Shown here: positions 21,039 through 32,560 of the stretch, piece by piece
How the letters are laid out: each line of letters starts with the position of its first letter
How positions within the stretch are numbered: position 1 is the stretch's first letter
NCBI RefSeq assembly: GCF_004322755.1
Contig: NZ_CP036401.1
Span: forward strand, 2,790,001 to 2,854,000
Reading direction: 5' to 3'
DNA: 64,000 nt
Source: Pseudoduganella albidiflava
GTDB taxonomy: Bacteria; Pseudomonadota; Gammaproteobacteria; Burkholderiales; Burkholderiaceae_D
Notes under the pieces: model-generated
Told to the model about the DNA's origin: nothing
What the model saw: the letters and a program-made list of their open reading frames with translations, nothing else
The model's database searches: none
Translations under genes and position numbers: made by a program

Positions 21039-21072
21039 GGTGTCGGACACCGGCTTCCCGGTGTCGGACACC
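21039..21072. repeat. Two GGTGTCGGACACC palindromes
   Basis: GGTGTCGGACACC occurs at 21039-21051 and again at 21060-21072, separated by GGCTTCCC, between two convergent genes. The same 13-mer occurs four times at 27475-27577. In the opposite reading it is AACC-GGTGTCCGACACC, matching the frame of the other palindromes in the window. It could also act as an RNA hairpin behind the exporter gene. Confidence 0.8.
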
Positions 21073-21153
21073 GGTTGTTCCAGGAAGCGGGTGCAGGCTG
21101 TTGAAATCCAGTATCCGACAGCAAGGGGTTTCAATCCCCCGGTGAGCGCCTGG

Positions 21154-26680: not shown

Positions 26681-26697
26681 CGGGACACCGGTAAAAC

Positions 26698-26724
26698 AAA
26701 AGCCTCCGCGAGCGGAGGCTTTTT
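26698..26724. terminator. Bidirectional rho-independent terminator
   Basis: AGCCTCCGC-GA-GCGGAGGCT is a perfect 9-bp stem flanked by AAAA on the left and TTTT on the right, so it can end transcription from both sides. It serves the plus-strand gene ending at 26680 and the minus-strand small gene ending at 26744. Confidence 0.85.
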
Positions 26725-26743
26725 CATTTGCGGCGGCGGCTGA

Positions 26744-26890
26744 TTACAGCGGCGGCAGCGGGCCGTTCACGTACGGCGCGCCAGCCAGTTCGATGGCGCG
26801 GCGGAGTTCGGCGAGGAAAGCGGAAACCAGGCGGGAAAAGCCCGAAGTTTCGTTGGCGGCTTCGAAGCGCGGTGCGGTGGTGGTCGTCAT
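26744..26890 (-). CDS. Twin small protein 1 with GAPYVNGPLPPL tail
   Basis: This 48-residue gene on the minus strand belongs to no known family. AGGAG sits seven bases before the ATG at 26890; another ATG at 26896 is too close to it. The product has a Thr/Ala-rich start (MTTTTAPRFEAANE), a probable amphipathic helix (RLVSAFLAELRRAIELA) and the tail GAPYVNGPLPPL. The tail and half of the helix recur in the gene at 27133. It has its own promoter and terminator. There is no signal peptide and no cysteine. Possible roles are a secreted or processed peptide, a peptide signal, or a small regulatory protein bound through its C-terminus (all inference). Confidence 0.75.
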   Translation of the reverse strand: MTTTTAPRFEAANETSGFSRLVSAFLAELRRAIELAGAPYVNGPLPPL

Positions 26891-26929
26891 GGTCATGCTC
26901 CTGAATGCGTTTGCGTTGGCGATGGTTGA

Positions 26930-26959
26930 ATCTTACGCGCCGTCCAGATATAGATCCAA
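26930..26959 (-). promoter_or_regulatory. Sigma-70 promoter of twin small gene 1
   Basis: Read on the minus strand: -35 TTGGAT (26959-26954), 18-base spacer, -10 TAAGAT (26935-26930). The start codon is 40 bases further on. The paralogous gene has the same arrangement at the same distance. On the plus strand the blocks ATATAGATCCAATT (26948-26961) and GCGATGG..GAAT..TACG (from 26919) are shared with that copy. Confidence 0.7.
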
Positions 26960-27079
26960 TTTTGATTTCCCATGCCGGCGATAAGATTTGCGTATATCTA
27001 CTGGAAATCCGTCATCACTGTTGCGTTAGGTAAATATACGTTTTGCTTATTTCTGTCGGGGTGATAAATTTCTGCCAAG

Positions 27080-27107
27080 AAAAAAGCCAGGGTAGTGGCC
27101 CTGGCTT
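27080..27107 (-). terminator. Terminator of twin small gene 2
   Basis: On the minus strand the stem AGCCAGGG / CCCTGGCT with a 6-base loop is followed by TTTTTT, a standard rho-independent terminator. It stands 26 bases past the stop codon of the gene at 27133 and separates it from the first twin gene. The two are therefore independent transcription units. Confidence 0.85.
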
Positions 27108-27132
27108 TCCACGGACTTCCTGTCGGGCAGTC

Positions 27133-27285
27133 TTACAGCGGCGGCAGCGGGCCGTTCAGGTAAGGCGCGCCGTATTGCTTGATGGCGTTGCGGAGGAAGG
27201 CAAGCACGCTGCGGACCGCGCGGGCAATGGCGGAGCCGGACTGGCGTTCGTTGGCGGCGGGGGAGGCGGTGATCGTGGCGTTCAT
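27133..27285 (-). CDS. Twin small protein 2 with GAPYLNGPLPPL tail
   Basis: This 50-residue paralogue of the gene at 26744 is encoded on the same strand. The C-terminal halves align without gaps: VLAFLRNAIKQYGAPYLNGPLPPL here against FLAELRRAIELAGAPYVNGPLPPL there (shown in part: LAFLRNAIKQ against LAELRRAIEL, then GAPYxNGPLPPL). The N-terminus is Ala/Ser/Asn-rich and diverged. The ribosome binding site is weak (GAGAA). The change pattern (substitutions at Y/A, L/V, K/E while the tail is fixed) looks like selection on a protein rather than chance. No function can be assigned. Confidence 0.75.
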   Translation of the reverse strand: MNATITASPAANERQSGSAIARAVRSVLAFLRNAIKQYGAPYLNGPLPPL

Positions 27286-27323: not shown

Positions 27324-27353
27324 ATGGTACGGTCTCGATAAATATAAGACCAA
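27324..27353 (-). promoter_or_regulatory. Sigma-70 promoter of twin small gene 2
   Basis: Minus strand: -35 TTGGTC (27353-27348), 18-base spacer, -10 TACCAT (27329-27324), 39 bases before the ATG. Its plus-strand blocks ATATAAGACCAATT (27342-27355) and GCGATGG..GAAT..TACG (from 27313) match the first twin promoter with nearly the same spacing. Confidence 0.65.
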
Positions 27354-27474
27354 TTACGAGTTTGGATGTTGGCTATCTTGATCGTGAATAACACCCGATG
27401 TGCGAGAAGCGAACCTGTGATCAATAGCGAATGCGTTCAATGGCTTCCGCATTTCAGTTAGCGGTCGCATAGCT

Positions 27475-27577
27475 GGTGTCGGACACCACCGGTGTCGGAC
27501 ACCGGTTCTTGTTCGCATGTTGCTGACTTCGGTCTGGAAAACCGGTGTCCGACACCGAAAAGCCGGTGTCCGACACC
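27475..27577. repeat. Four palindromes in two head-to-head pairs
   Basis: GGTGTCGGACACC occurs at 27475-27487 and 27491-27503, and its complement-orientation form GGTGTCCGACACC at 27544-27556 and 27565-27577. The whole 103-base stretch is a large inverted repeat able to fold on itself, with a 40-base centre. The flanks AAAACC and AAAAGCC repeat. No gene overlaps it. The rest of 27286-27668 holds only the twin-gene promoter. Confidence 0.85.
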
Positions 27578-27668: not shown

Positions 27669-29243
27669 TTACCGCTTGCCCAGCAACTCCACCAGCCCGT
27701 CCCCCAGGCTGCCGCGCCAGTGGTACCAGTCGTGCCCGGCGGCGAATTCGCGGTAGGCCACCTGGTACCCCTTGGCGCGCAAGACGTCGCGCAGGTGCCG
27801 CGTGGTGTCGAGGATGCCGGGCGAGCCGGCGCGGCCGGTTTCGTACAGGCCCGCTTCGAGCAGGAAGCGCACCGGCACGGCGGGCGCGCCGGCGAATTCG
27901 CGTGTCAGCCATTCGGGTTCCTCTCGGCCGGGCGACCACCAGAACGAGCCGGACTGGCTGTACACGTTGCCGAACAGCTCGGGATGCCGCAAGCCGGCGT
28001 GGGCAGCGGCCAGGCCGCCGTAGCTGGCGCCGCCGATGACGGTCTTCGCCGCCTCCGCGTACACGCCCCGCGCCCGCGCCCACGGCATCAGTTCCGTGGC
28101 CAGGAAGCGGGCGAAAGCCGGGTTCGGCGGCAATTCCGCGCCGCGCGATTCGGCACTGGGGTTGGCGACCAGGATGCCCGCGGTCCGCGGCAGCGCGCCG
28201 CTGCCGGCCAGGTTGTCGAGGATGACCGATGCCGGTACTTCATTGGCCAGATTCTCGGCATCGAACAGCACCACCAGCGCATTGCCGGCCGCGCCGGGCT
28301 GCCAGCCGGCCGGGCGGTACAGTACGATGTCGCGCTCGTTGCCCAGTTCCCGGCTGGCCAGCCGCAGCGTTTCCACCGTACCGGGGGCGATGCCGGGACG
28401 CGGTTCGACCCACGCCTGCGGCGGCGCGGCCGGCAGTTCCAGCACCGAATTGCCATCGAAGCGGTCCAGCGGCTTCACGGGAAAACTGCGCGGATTGAGG
28501 GGATCGCGCTGCGCCGTCGCCAGGATCGCGCGGCGGCGCTGGGACGGCATGCCGTCGAAGTCCGGCACGTCGGGCGCCAGCCGGTACGACAGCCGCGTGC
28601 TGGCCGGCACCCGGTAGCTGCGGTACCAGACATCGCTGTCGCCCAGCCGCGCCATCGCATCGTGGTCGGACGACGGCGCGCCCAGGATGCGCACGTTGGC
28701 GACGGCGCCGCGCCACAGGAACGTCAGCAGGACTTCATCTTTCTCCAGTGCGGGAACCACGCCCGCCGTTTCGACCAGCGGCCCGCCGCCGGCCGCCGCC
28801 TCGGCCCAGAAGGCTTCGGTGCCGCCGCCGCCGGCCAGCGTTTCCCGCAGGGCGCGCAGCCGCGGGCTGTCCGGCAGCACGGGCGGTGCCACCTGCGCCG
28901 CGCGGGGCACTTGCCGCGTCAACTGGAGTTCGTAGGAGCCCGCGACCGGGGCGCGCACGTCCAGCGTGTATGGCCCGCGGTCGCCGGCGATGAACATGAA
29001 GTCCTGCTCGTCGCGCCGGCCCTTGGCCAGGATGCGGGCGCGCTGGCCGTCGCGGTCGAGCAGCACCAGGCGCATGCCCTGGCCCGCCAGCAGGCCCTGC
29101 ACGAAGTCGCCGGGCGCCAGTTGCACCGGATGTTCGCGGTGGGTCTGCGCGGCCAGCGTGCCGGTGAAGCGGGGCAGGCCGGCGGCCGCCAGCGCCGAAG
29201 AGTACAGCGTTGCCAGCATGGCGATAGCGAGGAAGCGCCGCAT
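27669..29243 (-). CDS. Periplasmic Fes/PfeE-like siderophore esterase
   Basis: This 524-residue alpha/beta hydrolase of the enterochelin-esterase family has an N-terminal signal peptide (MRRFLAIAMLATLYSSALAA), so it works in the periplasm like PfeE/IroE rather than in the cytoplasm like Fes. After a beta-sandwich N-terminal part with the typical WYRSYRVP region comes the hydrolase domain: RDIVLYRPAGW, nucleophile GGASYGG and the catalytic His in AAGHDWYHW. It should cleave a ferric catecholate ester to release iron. Its ATG overlaps the stop codon of the receptor gene (TGATG), so the two are translationally coupled and probably handle the same siderophore. Confidence 0.87.
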   Translation of the reverse strand: MRRFLAIAMLATLYSSALAAAGLPRFTGTLAAQTHREHPVQLAPGDFVQGLLAGQGMRLVLLDRDGQRARILAKGRRDEQDFMFIAGDRGPYTLDVRAPVAGSYELQLTRQVPRAAQVAPPVLPDSPRLRALRETLAGGGGTEAFWAEAAAGGGPLVETAGVVPALEKDEVLLTFLWRGAVANVRILGAPSSDHDAMARLGDSDVWYRSYRVPASTRLSYRLAPDVPDFDGMPSQRRRAILATAQRDPLNPRSFPVKPLDRFDGNSVLELPAAPPQAWVEPRPGIAPGTVETLRLASRELGNERDIVLYRPAGWQPGAAGNALVVLFDAENLANEVPASVILDNLAGSGALPRTAGILVANPSAESRGAELPPNPAFARFLATELMPWARARGVYAEAAKTVIGGASYGGLAAAHAGLRHPELFGNVYSQSGSFWWSPGREEPEWLTREFAGAPAVPVRFLLEAGLYETGRAGSPGILDTTRHLRDVLRAKGYQVAYREFAAGHDWYHWRGSLGDGLVELLGKR

Positions 29244-31312
29244 CAGAACCTCGCCAGCAGCGACAGGAACAGCCGGCGGCCTTCCTCGTTGAAGTCGGCC
29301 GAGACGTCGCGCTGCGTGCCCCGGTCGGCCACGTTCAGCACGCCGGCGCTGACGGTGTACTGGCCGGCCCGGAACGCCGCCGACAGGTCGGCCACCGTAT
29401 AGCCACCCTTGCGCAGCATGTTCACGCCGCTGGCGGGCACGTTCAGGTATTGCTCGCCGATGTAGCGCGCCGTGGCGGACGTGCTCCACGCGTCGGCCGG
29501 ACGCCAGTCGAGCGACACGTTGGCGTTCATGCGCGGCCGGTAGACCAGCGGCAGGTCCTTCGCACCGCTGGTGTTCTTCGTGTCGGTGTAGGTGTAGTTG
29601 ACGCGGCCCGTCACTGTGTCCGTCAGCGTGGCGCGCAGGCTGGCCTCGATGCCGCGGGTGCGCACGCTGGCGATGTTCTGGTAGGCGAACACCGGCCGGC
29701 CATCCGGCAGGAAGCCCTTGAAGTTCGCATAGGACGGGGCCAGCGCGCGGTCCGACGTGCGGCTGGTGATGTCGATCATGTCGCGCAGCTTGTTGTGGAA
29801 GGCGGTCACGCCGCCGGCCAGGCGGCCCTGTTCGTACAGGATGCCCAGTTCCTTGCTGGTACTGGTTTCCGGCTTCAGGTCGGGACTGCCGATGATGTAG
29901 CAGCCCACGGTGGCGCTGCCGCACGATACCGAACCCCAGTTGCTGGACCCCTGCAGCAGTGTCGGCGCACGGAAGGCCCGCGCCCAGCCAGCCTTGACGG
30001 TCCACTGCGGCGCCGCGTGCCACACCGCGTAGGCACGCGGGCTGTGGTGGCCGCCGAAGTTCTCGTGGTGGTCGTAGCGGTCGCCCAGCGTCACGCGCAC
30101 GTCGCCCGGCAGCACGATCTCGTCCTCGATGAACAGCGCTTCCTGCCGGACCGCGATGTTCGGATCGGCGCGGTAGCCCGGCGTGCCGGGCAGGCCGGTC
30201 ACGTTGGCGGGATCGTGCAGCTTCTCGCGGCGCGCTTCGCCGCCCACCGTCAGCGTGTGGCCGGCCGATTCCCAGGGCAGCACCAGCTTGCCGTTGACCG
30301 TGTCGTTGCGGGCTTCGTTCGGGTTCTTCTGGCCGGTGACGGTGCCGACCAGGTTCTGCGTCTTGTCCAGGTTGATCGACAGGTCGGAGCGGCCGAAGCC
30401 GTAGCGGCCCGAGTGGCTCAGCGAGCTGGCATCGCGTTCCAGGATGAAGCCGCCGTGGTCGCGCCGGCTGGTGTCGTGGCCCAGCTTCACTTCATGGCCC
30501 GCGGCGGGCAGCCAGGACAGCAGGGCGCTGTACTGCCGGTTGGCGATCAGCGGCATGCCGGCCTGCGCCACGCCATTGACCGGCGCATTCACCTGGCCGT
30601 CGCCATCGCGCTTGTCGTAGCCGGCCGACACCCGTAGGCCCAGCACGTCCGGGATCAGCGGACCGCTGGCGCTGACGCTGGCCGAGCGGGTATCGCCGGC
30701 GGCGTCGTCGCGCGGCGCCACGGCATCGAGTTTCACGGTGCCGCGCCAGGTCTTGCCGACCTTTTTCGTGATGATGTTGACCACGCCGCCGATCGCATCG
30801 GAGCCATACAGCGACGACATCGGCCCGCGCACCACCTCGATGCGCTCGATCTCCGTGGTGGGCACCCAGCCCGTATCGTAGTCGTTGCCGCGGAAGCTGG
30901 CGCTGGTGGAGTTGACGCGCTTGCCGTCGACCAGGAACAGCGTATAGGCGGCGCCCAGCCCGCGCAGCTGCACGCCGGGCACCAGGTTGCCGCCGCGCGA
31001 CAGCGACACGCCTTCGATAGTGCCGAGCAGCTCGGCCACTTCCAGGACCGGGCGCTTCTCGATGTCGGCACGGGTCAGCACGGAAATGCTGGCCGGGGCG
31101 TCGCGCACGGCCTGCTCGTGGGCCGATGCCGTGACCACGACGGTGGGCAGGGCTTCGGCTTCCTGGGCCTGGGCGCCGCACGCGGCGATGAGCGCGAGAC
31201 TGGCGGGCAAGGTCGTGACCAGGGCGCGGGCGAGGGCGGGAGCGAGGGCGGGAGCGAGGGTGCTGGAGACGGCGCCAGCCAGCGGCCGGCGGCGAAGGAC
31301 TGCGGATTTCAT
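29243..31312 (-). CDS. TonB-dependent catecholate siderophore receptor (FepA/PfeA type)
   Basis: This 689-residue outer-membrane receptor begins at ATG 31312 after GGGGAAG; an ATG at 31324 has no binding site. A long hydrophobic signal with a repeated Leu-Ala-Pro-Ala stretch ends near AQAQ. Then come the TonB box (LPTVVVTAS), plug marks (RDAPASISVLTRADIEKRP, GVQLRGLGAAYTLFLVDGKRV) and the FepA-like VRGPMSSLYGSDAIGGVVNIITKK. The barrel ends in ARF. The plug is close to FepA/BfeA/PirA, which bind ferric enterobactin and similar catecholates. A Fur box lies just upstream, an esterase gene is coupled downstream and an AraC-type regulator is divergent. This is a complete uptake module. Confidence 0.92.
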   Translation of the reverse strand: MKSAVLRRRPLAGAVSSTLAPALAPALARALVTTLPASLALIAACGAQAQEAEALPTVVVTASAHEQAVRDAPASISVLTRADIEKRPVLEVAELLGTIEGVSLSRGGNLVPGVQLRGLGAAYTLFLVDGKRVNSTSASFRGNDYDTGWVPTTEIERIEVVRGPMSSLYGSDAIGGVVNIITKKVGKTWRGTVKLDAVAPRDDAAGDTRSASVSASGPLIPDVLGLRVSAGYDKRDGDGQVNAPVNGVAQAGMPLIANRQYSALLSWLPAAGHEVKLGHDTSRRDHGGFILERDASSLSHSGRYGFGRSDLSINLDKTQNLVGTVTGQKNPNEARNDTVNGKLVLPWESAGHTLTVGGEARREKLHDPANVTGLPGTPGYRADPNIAVRQEALFIEDEIVLPGDVRVTLGDRYDHHENFGGHHSPRAYAVWHAAPQWTVKAGWARAFRAPTLLQGSSNWGSVSCGSATVGCYIIGSPDLKPETSTSKELGILYEQGRLAGGVTAFHNKLRDMIDITSRTSDRALAPSYANFKGFLPDGRPVFAYQNIASVRTRGIEASLRATLTDTVTGRVNYTYTDTKNTSGAKDLPLVYRPRMNANVSLDWRPADAWSTSATARYIGEQYLNVPASGVNMLRKGGYTVADLSAAFRAGQYTVSAGVLNVADRGTQRDVSADFNEEGRRLFLSLLARF

Positions 31313-31324
31313 GGACTTCCCCAT

Positions 31325-31344
31325 TTGAGAATGATTCTTATTTG
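31325..31344. promoter_or_regulatory. Fur box between receptor and AraC regulator
   Basis: TTGAGAATGATTCTTATTTG matches much of the Fur consensus and lies 12-32 bases upstream of the receptor ATG on the minus strand. On the other side it is about 60 bases before the AraC-type gene, so it can control both. Confidence 0.75.
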
Positions 31345-31402
31345 CGAAAAACGGGAATTGTGGCAGACTATTGCAAAAGGGATATTTGTTAAAAATAAGA
31401 AT

Positions 31403-32560
31403 ATGTTTGAGCCGGAAAAGAAATTGGCGGGTACGCGCCATCCATGCGGGAGCACGCGCTACGTGACGCGGGCCGACCTGGTCCGCAGTGCCGGACTGCT
31501 GGGAGCGGCCTACACCTTCAACGACAGCGCGCCCGCCGACGAGCAGGTGCTGCACGGCCAGTTCGACACGCTGCAACTGCGGCCCGGCCTGATCCTGCAC
31601 GCGGCCTGCGTGCGCGACCTGCGCACCATGGACACCAGCAACCAGCTGGATCCGGCCGTGAAGATCGTGCTGCTGGTCGACGGTGCCACCGACCTGTCGT
31701 TCGGCCATCACCGCTTCCAGCTGGGGCCACGCTCCGCCGATCCGGCCCAGCGGGCCAGCGGGGCGCTGGTCAACCTGGCCGAGGAAGACCTGTTCGCGCG
31801 GCGCTGGCAGGCCGGCCGCACCGAACGCAAGGTCAGCCTGACGCTGACGCCGGAGTGGATCGAAGAGGGCGGACTGGCGGCGCACGGCGACCACGCCGCG
31901 CTGCGCGCCTTCTGCCGCGAACACCTGGCGCGGCAGCCCTGGACGCCGTCCGCACGGGCCCGTGACCTGGCGCGGGCCATCCTCGAACCGGCATCGTTCG
32001 AGCCGGGCCTGCACCGGCTGCGGCTGGAAGCGCGCTGCCTCGAGCTGGCGGCCGAAGCGCTGGCGGCGGTCGGCGAGCACATGCCCGGCACGCCCGCGCT
32101 GCGCGAGATCGACCGGCGGCGCCTGCGCCGGCTCGATGAACTGCTGCATGCGGCGGCCAGCGACGCCTTGCCGACCATGCCGGCAGTTCCGGCCCACGCG
32201 CCACCGCCGGCCGGCCTGCCGGCGCCCGTTGCGTCGGTGCCCGTGCCTTGCATGCCGGCGCTGTCCATGCCGGAGTTGTCCATGGCCGGGATTGCGCGCG
32301 CCATCGGCACCAATCCCGTATCCCTGCAGGCACTGACGCGGCGCGCCTGGGGCTGCTCGGTGTTCGAGCGCCTGCGCATGCTGCGGCTGGAGCGGGCGCA
32401 CGACGTGCTGCTGCGCGGTGGCAGCGTGGCCGAAGCGGCCGCGGTGGCGGGATATTCGGCGGCCACCAACTTCGCCACCGCCTACCGGCGCCGCTATGGC
32501 TGCACGCCGCGGCAGGCGGCCAGCGGGCGCGCGGCATCACCTGTTGCAAACGTTGAGTGA
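31403..32560 (+). CDS. AraC-family regulator of siderophore uptake
   Basis: This 385-residue regulator has a C-terminal double helix-turn-helix: MAGIARAIGTNPVSLQALTRRAWG, ERLRMLRLERAHDVLL and VAEAAAVAGYSAATNFATAYRRRYG. The N-terminal domain (about 20-230) would bind the ferric siderophore, as in PchR. ATG 31403 follows an AT-rich leader (AAAATAAGAAT) and a weak binding site. It is divergent from the catecholate receptor across a Fur box. A linker of about 50 residues rich in Pro, Ala and Met (PAVPAHAPPPAGLPAPV...) joins the domains and is unusually long. Confidence 0.87.
   Translation: MFEPEKKLAGTRHPCGSTRYVTRADLVRSAGLLGAAYTFNDSAPADEQVLHGQFDTLQLRPGLILHAACVRDLRTMDTSNQLDPAVKIVLLVDGATDLSFGHHRFQLGPRSADPAQRASGALVNLAEEDLFARRWQAGRTERKVSLTLTPEWIEEGGLAAHGDHAALRAFCREHLARQPWTPSARARDLARAILEPASFEPGLHRLRLEARCLELAAEALAAVGEHMPGTPALREIDRRRLRRLDELLHAAASDALPTMPAVPAHAPPPAGLPAPVASVPVPCMPALSMPELSMAGIARAIGTNPVSLQALTRRAWGCSVFERLRMLRLERAHDVLLRGGSVAEAAAVAGYSAATNFATAYRRRYGCTPRQAASGRAASPVANVE

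Follow-up and report, generated by a model that had tools for sequence, protein, structure and literature searches.

Twin microprotein genes of Pseudoduganella albidiflava, their two-box promoter element and a predicted LysR-type regulon shared with RF02278 small RNAs

The twin genes and their protein family

The stretch of DNA analysed here, 64,000 nucleotides from the genome of Pseudoduganella albidiflava and referred to below as the window, harbours two small paralogous genes on the minus strand, which a preliminary description had already delimited and which we confirm as open reading frames of 48 and 50 residues plus stop. Gene 1 occupies 26744..26890 and encodes a protein with a variable head, a helix predicted for residues 12-36 and the tail GAPYVNGPLPPL; gene 2, its paralogue, occupies 27133..27285 and ends in the tail GAPYLNGPLPPL. 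An in-frame ATG at 26896 would extend gene 1 to 50 residues. Since the sequence AGGAG precedes position 26890 and the upstream ATG is absent from the near orthologues, translation of gene 1 is likely to start at 26890 rather than at 26896. In gene 2 the Shine-Dalgarno stretch is weak (GAGA). Direct reading of the sequence bears out that each twin possesses a promoter and a terminator of its own, as had been proposed. The core promoter of gene 1 (26930..26959, minus strand) comprises the -35 hexamer TTGGAT at 26954-26959 and the -10 hexamer TAAGAT at 26930-26935, that of gene 2 (27324..27353, minus strand) comprises TTGGTC at 27348-27353 and TACCAT at 27324-27329, the spacer measuring 18 nucleotides in both cases. 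The distance from the end of the -10 hexamer to the ATG amounts to 39 nt for gene 1 and 38 nt for gene 2. The terminator hairpins, read by eye on the minus strand 3' of the twins, are GC-rich with T runs and extend over 26695..26727 after gene 1 (AAAAGCCTCCGC/GCGGAGGCTTTT) and over 27078..27108 after gene 2 (AAAGCCAGGG/CCCTGGCTTTTTT), the former being usable by the convergent plus-strand genes as well.

Two further observations concern the surroundings of the twins. Upstream of them, on the same strand, 27669-32401 contains an enterochelin-esterase-like gene together with the gene of a TonB receptor, and the end of an esterase gene adjoins the gene pair also in one other genome (G017, locus L011). 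Furthermore, at 27475-27577, just upstream of the promoter element of gene 2 described below, the near-palindrome GGTGTCGGACACC is present four times, twice in each orientation; the translations of open reading frames hint at similar repeats near 21040-21130.

We use GAPY as a working name for the unnamed family of the twins, whose members comprise 43-53 residues (about 48). Searching with phmmer yielded nine relatives at E ≤ 1e-12 (ranging from 1e-19 to 1e-12), and the single query P0001 retrieved members in 12/74 genomes of the genus, the own genome included. With an HMM built from 18 rows, matches were obtained in 53/392 genomes of the family Oxalobacteraceae; two of these, in G121 (genus g7; within a 323-codon frame) and in G008 (within a 644-codon frame containing a stop), were removed as chance matches inside long frames, which leaves members in 51/392 genomes, all belonging to two genera (g1 and g19). 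A third match in the own genome, located inside an 883-codon frame, was dropped. By means of a 40-row profile 87 proteins were found, the organisms named being Massilia, Duganella, Pseudoduganella and [Empedobacter] haloabium, with one entry from a compost metagenome. A search at the level of the order (399 genomes) revealed no credible member outside Oxalobacteraceae; seven genomes of other families gave matches (E 1e-4 to 8e-4), all of which lie inside frames of 160-746 codons. Neither Pfam nor NCBIfam models provide a name for the family. The matches to DUF1045 (2/40 members, E 0.003) and to nine other models (single members, 0.04-0.34) were taken as chance, and nothing in our analysis backs the designation "MarR regulator" which UniRef assigns to member P0015. 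The assumption that such genes are too small for gene callers holds in part only, as several members are already present in databases as hypothetical proteins.

Across 40 members, the residues near-invariant besides Met1 are Arg30, Glu34 and Gly37 within the consensus LRRAxELxGAPY, while both the head and the last five residues vary. Hence, the fixed C-terminal tail initially postulated is found among near relatives but not across the family. The tails of the twins are under purifying selection: for twin 1, summing the 10 pairs among five orthologues gives a pS of 0.172 and a pN of 0.055 for the last 24 codons (pN/pS 0.32), compared with 0.351 and 0.140 for the head, and for twin 2, likewise in five orthologues, the last 24 codons give 0.323 and 0.084 (pN/pS 0.26), all these figures being sums over pairs which are not independent of one another. 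In the sole pair of twin 2 orthologues of equal length (L002 versus L021) the ratio for the head is 0.97, and therefore the head appears little constrained. The lengths of the twin 2 orthologues (46, 48, 50 and 52 residues) differ by whole codons so that the frame is kept. Judged from these patterns of substitution, the GAPY reading frame is maintained as protein-coding, above all over the C-terminal half. The existence of relatives and the retained frame thus support the earlier proposal of a real duplicated small-protein family with kept regulation, and the excess of synonymous over nonsynonymous change is in accordance with it. AlphaFold2 predicts a single helix of residues 12-36 at low confidence (mean pLDDT 70, pTM 0.37).

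It might be argued that the twin transcripts act as RNAs whose reading frame is incidental, as in the transcripts of the small RNA family RF02278 considered below. They do possess an sRNA-type promoter together with a terminator of their own, and the Shine-Dalgarno sequence is weak or absent in three members, gene 2 among them. As called by script, a Shine-Dalgarno-like 4-mer is absent from 9/41 GAPY starts; six of these nine have a later ATG provided with such a sequence, the remaining three being L002 (gene 2), L013 and L080. The predominance of synonymous change in the tail codons, the whole-codon length changes of twin 2 and the recovery of members with differing tails by a protein HMM speak against this explanation, as does the Rfam search, which returned nothing above the gathering score for the two GAPY loci of the own genome. 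We therefore attribute very little probability to it. Independently of this, the GAPY member of G009 (L013, near position 1500) has ATC in place of the start ATG, which indicates a decayed gene or an unusual start. A function as ribosome-arrest leader was rejected as each reading frame is followed by a terminator instead of a gene.

The preliminary description had further suspected a secreted or processed peptide. If the twins were precursors of a signalling peptide with the tail as its mature part, the conservation of the tail among near relatives would be readily understood, and a separate, secreted-looking family of genus g19 does have the same promoter. None of the 40 members, however, contains a hydrophobic stretch (0/40 above 1.6; the highest Kyte-Doolittle mean over 15 residues is 1.35), the residue at the would-be double-glycine site is variable (A 23, R 4, K 4, E 3, Q 2, D 2, G 1, S 1) and the last five residues are unconserved across the family. 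In addition, we looked for a conserved gene neighbourhood at 36 loci of about 3 kb. The most widespread cluster of adjacent reading frames comprised 5/36 loci, which are orthologous positions; apart from such positions no neighbour recurs, and neither export nor maturation genes were found nearby. On these grounds a signalling-peptide precursor is very unlikely and a secreted pheromone is not supported by the sequences, a leader of another type still being conceivable.

The promoter element and the genes behind it

The sequence blocks which the twins had been noted to share upstream belong to an element of 70 bp that precedes both genes and is composed of two tandem T-N11-A boxes and the -35/-10 core. 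In gene 1 the element (26930..26999, minus strand, as for all positions given here) scores 79.6 bits; its box 1 (ATACGCAAATCTTAT, 26981..26995) is centred at about -65 from the predicted start, and its box 2 (ATGGGAAATCAAAAT, 26959..26973) lies 22 bp downstream and extends into the -35 hexamer by its first base. In gene 2 the element (27324..27393, 56.9 bits) contains box 1 at 27375..27389 (ATTCACGATCAAGAT) and box 2 at 27353..27367 (ATCCAAACTCGTAAT). Scanning both strands of the whole window with the corresponding weight matrix, we found only the two twin promoters at -5 bits or above, both of which belong to the 93 training rows of the matrix. Both elements are likewise present at locus L024 of Pseudoduganella umbonata CECT 7753. 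In a reversed control the top score was 7.5 over 346,166 positions.

The training rows derive from 126 promoters, for which the -35/-10 core served as the sole basis of alignment; collapsing those at least 75% identical reduced them to 93 (53 of GAPY genes, 25 of sRNAs, 11 of membrane protein genes and 4 of secreted peptide genes). In the remaining genomes of the genus, the sRNA promoters had been found via the core pattern and are thus subject to a selection caveat; those of the own genome, as well as the copies read for the comparison with the LysR gene below, were found via RF02278. The T-N11-A motif of box 1 (columns 50/62) is present in 93/93 promoters, compared with 0-25/93 for other registers, and that of box 2 (with A84), 22 bp downstream, is again present in 93/93. 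The dinucleotides A49-T50, A62-T63 and A71-T72, all outside the letters used for alignment, also occur in 93/93, the commonest half sites being ATTC (38) and GAAT (26). LysR-type regulators possess a recognition site near -65 and an activation site reaching the -35 region, T-N11-A being their signature. The pair of boxes with centres at about -65 and -43, assuming a predicted transcription start 6-7 nt after the -10 hexamer, therefore corresponds to the layout of a LysR-type operator.

An alternative sigma factor recognising the element as its promoter could account for conserved blocks at a fixed spacing to the -10 hexamer over 93 promoters. The -10 hexamer, however, is a plain TANNNT, and the invariant upstream letters form two T-N11-A dyads reaching to about -72. 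Moreover, in the element-bearing copies L326 and L345 the TTGG of the -35 hexamer is gone, both boxes being retained. We consider this possibility hardly probable at all and retain the reading as a LysR-type operator. That the element travels as part of a mobile cassette was rejected as well, since the 45 columns upstream of it hold almost no information.

All GAPY members first read have the upstream block, albeit strongly degraded in L065 and L080. The core was found at no fewer than 15/20 positions in 20/20 of the weaker members from the list of the 18-row HMM, 4/20 of which had already appeared in the scan with a longer pattern. This longer pattern matched in 69 of the 74 genomes of the genus (reversed control 2), and an exact search for AAATTGGNNTTATATCT in the 392 genomes of the family located 23 sites, distributed over 20 genomes, as against 2 in the reversed control. 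With a short pattern, no separation was achieved in the own genome (55 sites versus 54 in the reversed control).

Four main classes are encountered behind the sites: the GAPY genes; a gene which diverges from a LysR gene and encodes a membrane protein of about 66-106 residues; a second unnamed peptide family, in the sister genus g19 (L090, L092, L093, L095, L096, L098, L101, L104; 68-70 residues, MN.AKNM..., with a signal-like start and the end VVGKRLTAAQKAK or similar); and RF02278-type sRNAs, i.e. short transcripts with CTGTCTCC, TCTCCTCC and a terminator. Among the places read in the own genome, the 11 predicted sites comprise eight at RF02278 copies, the site between the LysR and membrane protein genes (6918310) and those of the twins. 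We would like to add that the element is also present, with 62 bits, before a 70-residue protein of G021 (MNTNANALRPL..., L150:1065-1134) which is unlike GAPY. Genes of a periplasmic sugar-binding protein (L105, L140, L141; 12-15 bits only) and the gene at L142 (no site at or above 0 bits) were rejected as members of the regulon. The promoter at L105 contains the dyad AAATATC/GATATTT, and the sugar-binding-protein promoters are probably under a different regulator.

RF02278 small RNAs and the divergent LysR gene

RF02278 (Betaproteobacteria toxic small RNA) is the Rfam family of double-hairpin sRNAs which includes ncS03, ncS05, ncS27 and ncS62 as well as bdhR1, with S17 being related. In PMC5688073 these sRNAs are described as possessing CU-rich stretches complementary to ribosome-binding sites, over-expression of ncS27 as slowing growth of Burkholderia cenocepacia, and an upstream motif as common to three of the four homologues of that species; the regulator of sRNA accumulation is there called unknown. 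The element-borne sRNAs found here match this family: 15/17 loci from other genomes score above the gathering score of the covariance model (50 bits), L147 and L149 falling below. The own genome contains nine places at E ≤ 1e-5 (22 at E ≤ 10), four above and five below the gathering score. Both boxes precede eight of these nine strong copies, the one at 7431203 being devoid of them. Altogether, the upstream region was read at 14 RF02278-like places of the own genome, five of them weaker matches, and eight entered the promoter set. Within Burkholderiales RF02278 is found in 76/150 genomes at E ≤ 1e-5; at RF02278 loci outside Oxalobacteraceae the element was detected in 0/28, the last four scored peaking at 3.7 (L193).

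The LysR gene divergent from the membrane protein gene starts, in the own genome, at G000:C1:6918274 on the minus strand. Its product is best matched by the models of BsrA (224.5 bits) and LeuO (156.9 bits). As it misses both curated cut-offs (480 and 262, respectively), we file it under neither name. The best PDB match is 1uth (DntR). At E ≤ 1e-90 the LysR protein is present in 104/126 genomes and 34/44 genera of the family. The element is located on the divergent side of the gene at 28/30 of the best-matching loci (41-75 bits); outside g1, where none belonged to the training set, it stands beside the LysR gene in 22/24 of those loci. In 24 further genera, each represented by one genome, it was found in 22/24 at 31-77 bits, and on the other strand 0/24 exceeded 10; this comparison might have weakened the case for the LysR gene but did not. 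Counting g27 (L318), g18 (L083) and g26 (L082), the element accompanies the LysR gene in 30/34 LysR-bearing genera. A good site is missing in g2 (L268), g10 (L273) and g44 (L401); the site in g8 (L380) scores low yet contains both boxes, its -10 hexamer being one base nearer. Two genomes of g11, whose LysR is 59-60% identical, have the element beside the gene in one case, and their single RF02278 copy is without the element. The start of the LysR gene lies as near as 31 bp to the core, and a divergent operator beside the regulator gene is the usual autoregulatory layout of LysR-type regulators.

The LysR gene also co-occurs with the sRNAs. Among 35 chosen genomes, 16/18 of those lacking LysR possess no or one RF02278 copy (the exceptions being G110 with five and G118 with three), compared with 2-12 copies in the 15 genomes whose LysR is at least 70% identical and one in each of the two g11 genomes. 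The element is present at 14/18 copies in LysR-bearing genomes, at 0/9 copies where LysR is lacking (nine genomes from seven genera) and at 0/2 copies in g11. Counted per genome, at least one element-bearing RF02278 copy occurs in 16/16 genomes with LysR versus 2/11 without (Fisher p 1.2e-5, which overstates the case, the genomes being related and hence not independent of one another). This table omits the g11 pair and the own genome, with which the LysR-bearing genomes read amount to 17. Counted per genus, with the own genus included, the figures are 15/15 versus 2/9 (p 1e-4). Many copies stand behind other promoters: across nine LysR-bearing genomes, 26/58 copies exceed 10 bits, four of the five copies having been read in G134 and two of the four in G170.

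These numbers bear on the question of whether another LysR-type regulator might act on the same regulon through the same boxes, the divergent LysR gene merely being the neighbour of one more target. The own genome indeed offers 107 first-look candidates for the LysR query. Furthermore, G110 (95% complete; element at 3/5 copies) and G118 (89% complete; 1/3) possess the element, yet no LysR orthologue was detected in either of them with the threshold set to E ≤ 1e-40, the best match in G110 being 37% identical. These two genomes, whose congeners do have the LysR gene, might be accounted for by an assembly gap or by another regulator. Against a mere neighbourhood stand the recurrence of the element in the divergent region in most LysR-bearing genera, its closeness to the LysR start and the co-occurrence with element-bearing sRNAs given above. 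We thus consider control by another LysR-type regulator unlikely and regard the divergent LysR gene as the most plausible candidate.

Two observations concern RF02278 copies without the element. At L329, L340, L343, L346, L364 and L370 they have a second upstream motif, approximately ACCGTATTTTTACGGTATTGC.CCGCACCAT, pointing to a possible second regulator of RF02278 sRNAs. At L318 (G099) and L323 (G075) the divergent side of the LysR gene contains element-less copies at a distance of about 0.6-1.5 kb; an element directly beside the LysR gene stands nearer to it than these copies.

The predicted circuit and related systems

Taken together, we consider it quite probable that the twins encode soluble microproteins of a LysR-switched regulon which also comprises RF02278 sRNAs. 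The GAPY twins would represent one protein arm of this regulon. Its regulator, most likely the product of the LysR gene divergent from the gene of the ~95-residue membrane protein, would bind, probably as a tetramer, to the two T-N11-A boxes 22 bp apart and act from there on a sigma-70 type promoter. In the presence of an inducer, the CU-rich, anti-Shine-Dalgarno RF02278 sRNAs would hold down the translation of uptake and metabolic genes. The GAPY proteins, consisting of a helix and a variable, often proline-rich C-terminal tail, may take part in this response as protein partners. While the family, the purifying selection on the tail, the element with the genes behind it and its tie to the LysR gene emerge from the computations, the binding of LysR, the direction of its control, the targets of the sRNAs in these organisms and the partners of the microproteins are predictions.

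The circuit resembles the regulon of VtlR/LsrB, in which trans-acting sRNAs and small-protein genes, each with a promoter of its own but a common box, are activated by one LysR-type regulator. According to PMC7486931 and PMC12595884, the direct targets that VtlR of Rhizobiales activates comprise, in Agrobacterium, an AbcR sRNA and the gene of a small protein and, in Brucella, AbcR2 and three DUF1127 proteins (Brucella melitensis); the latter source adds that restored VtlR targets did not restore virulence (PMC12595884). In contrast to the circuit described here, the VtlR regulon belongs to a different bacterial class, and the sRNA of our regulon is RF02278. No DUF1127 match is found among the 40 GAPY members at E ≤ 1 with the Pfam model, and the VtlR box GCAT-N3-TG-N3-T occurs in 4/93 promoters (0.48 in shuffles) compared with 93/93 for T-N11-A. 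By analogy, the Oxalobacteraceae circuit may work like the VtlR regulon with unrelated parts, VtlR having been compared by description, and we do not file it as one.

A second parallel is provided by CcaF1 of Rhodobacter sphaeroides, a DUF1127 protein which helps to mature four homologous sRNAs (cited in PMC12501420). The likeness consists in a small protein paired with multi-copy sRNAs; the difference is that CcaF1 and its sRNAs share one operon, while the genes studied here have separate promoters and, as stated, lack a DUF1127 match. DUF1127 proteins are moreover described in the same text as binding the PhoR kinase (PMC12501420). Against this background it is conceivable, though rather doubtful, that Betaproteobacteria independently built a LysR-controlled pairing of multi-copy CU-rich sRNAs with proteins of about 50 residues, in which GAPY proteins would be dedicated partners of RF02278 sRNAs or of their targets. 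They might then act as maturation factor, chaperone adaptor or kinase brake, and the variable tail might set the choice of partner for each paralogue.

Among the matches listed from open-licence literature, the portions available contain no report of the element, the regulator or the GAPY family. The predicted operator, the candidate regulator and the list of co-regulated microproteins make the question of how the sRNAs are regulated testable in Oxalobacteraceae. At the same time, the unnamed GAPY family gains a functional setting. The circuit would likely constitute an instance of convergence in which a single LysR switch couples sRNAs to microproteins, comparable to VtlR/AbcR/DUF1127 and CcaF1 of Alphaproteobacteria.
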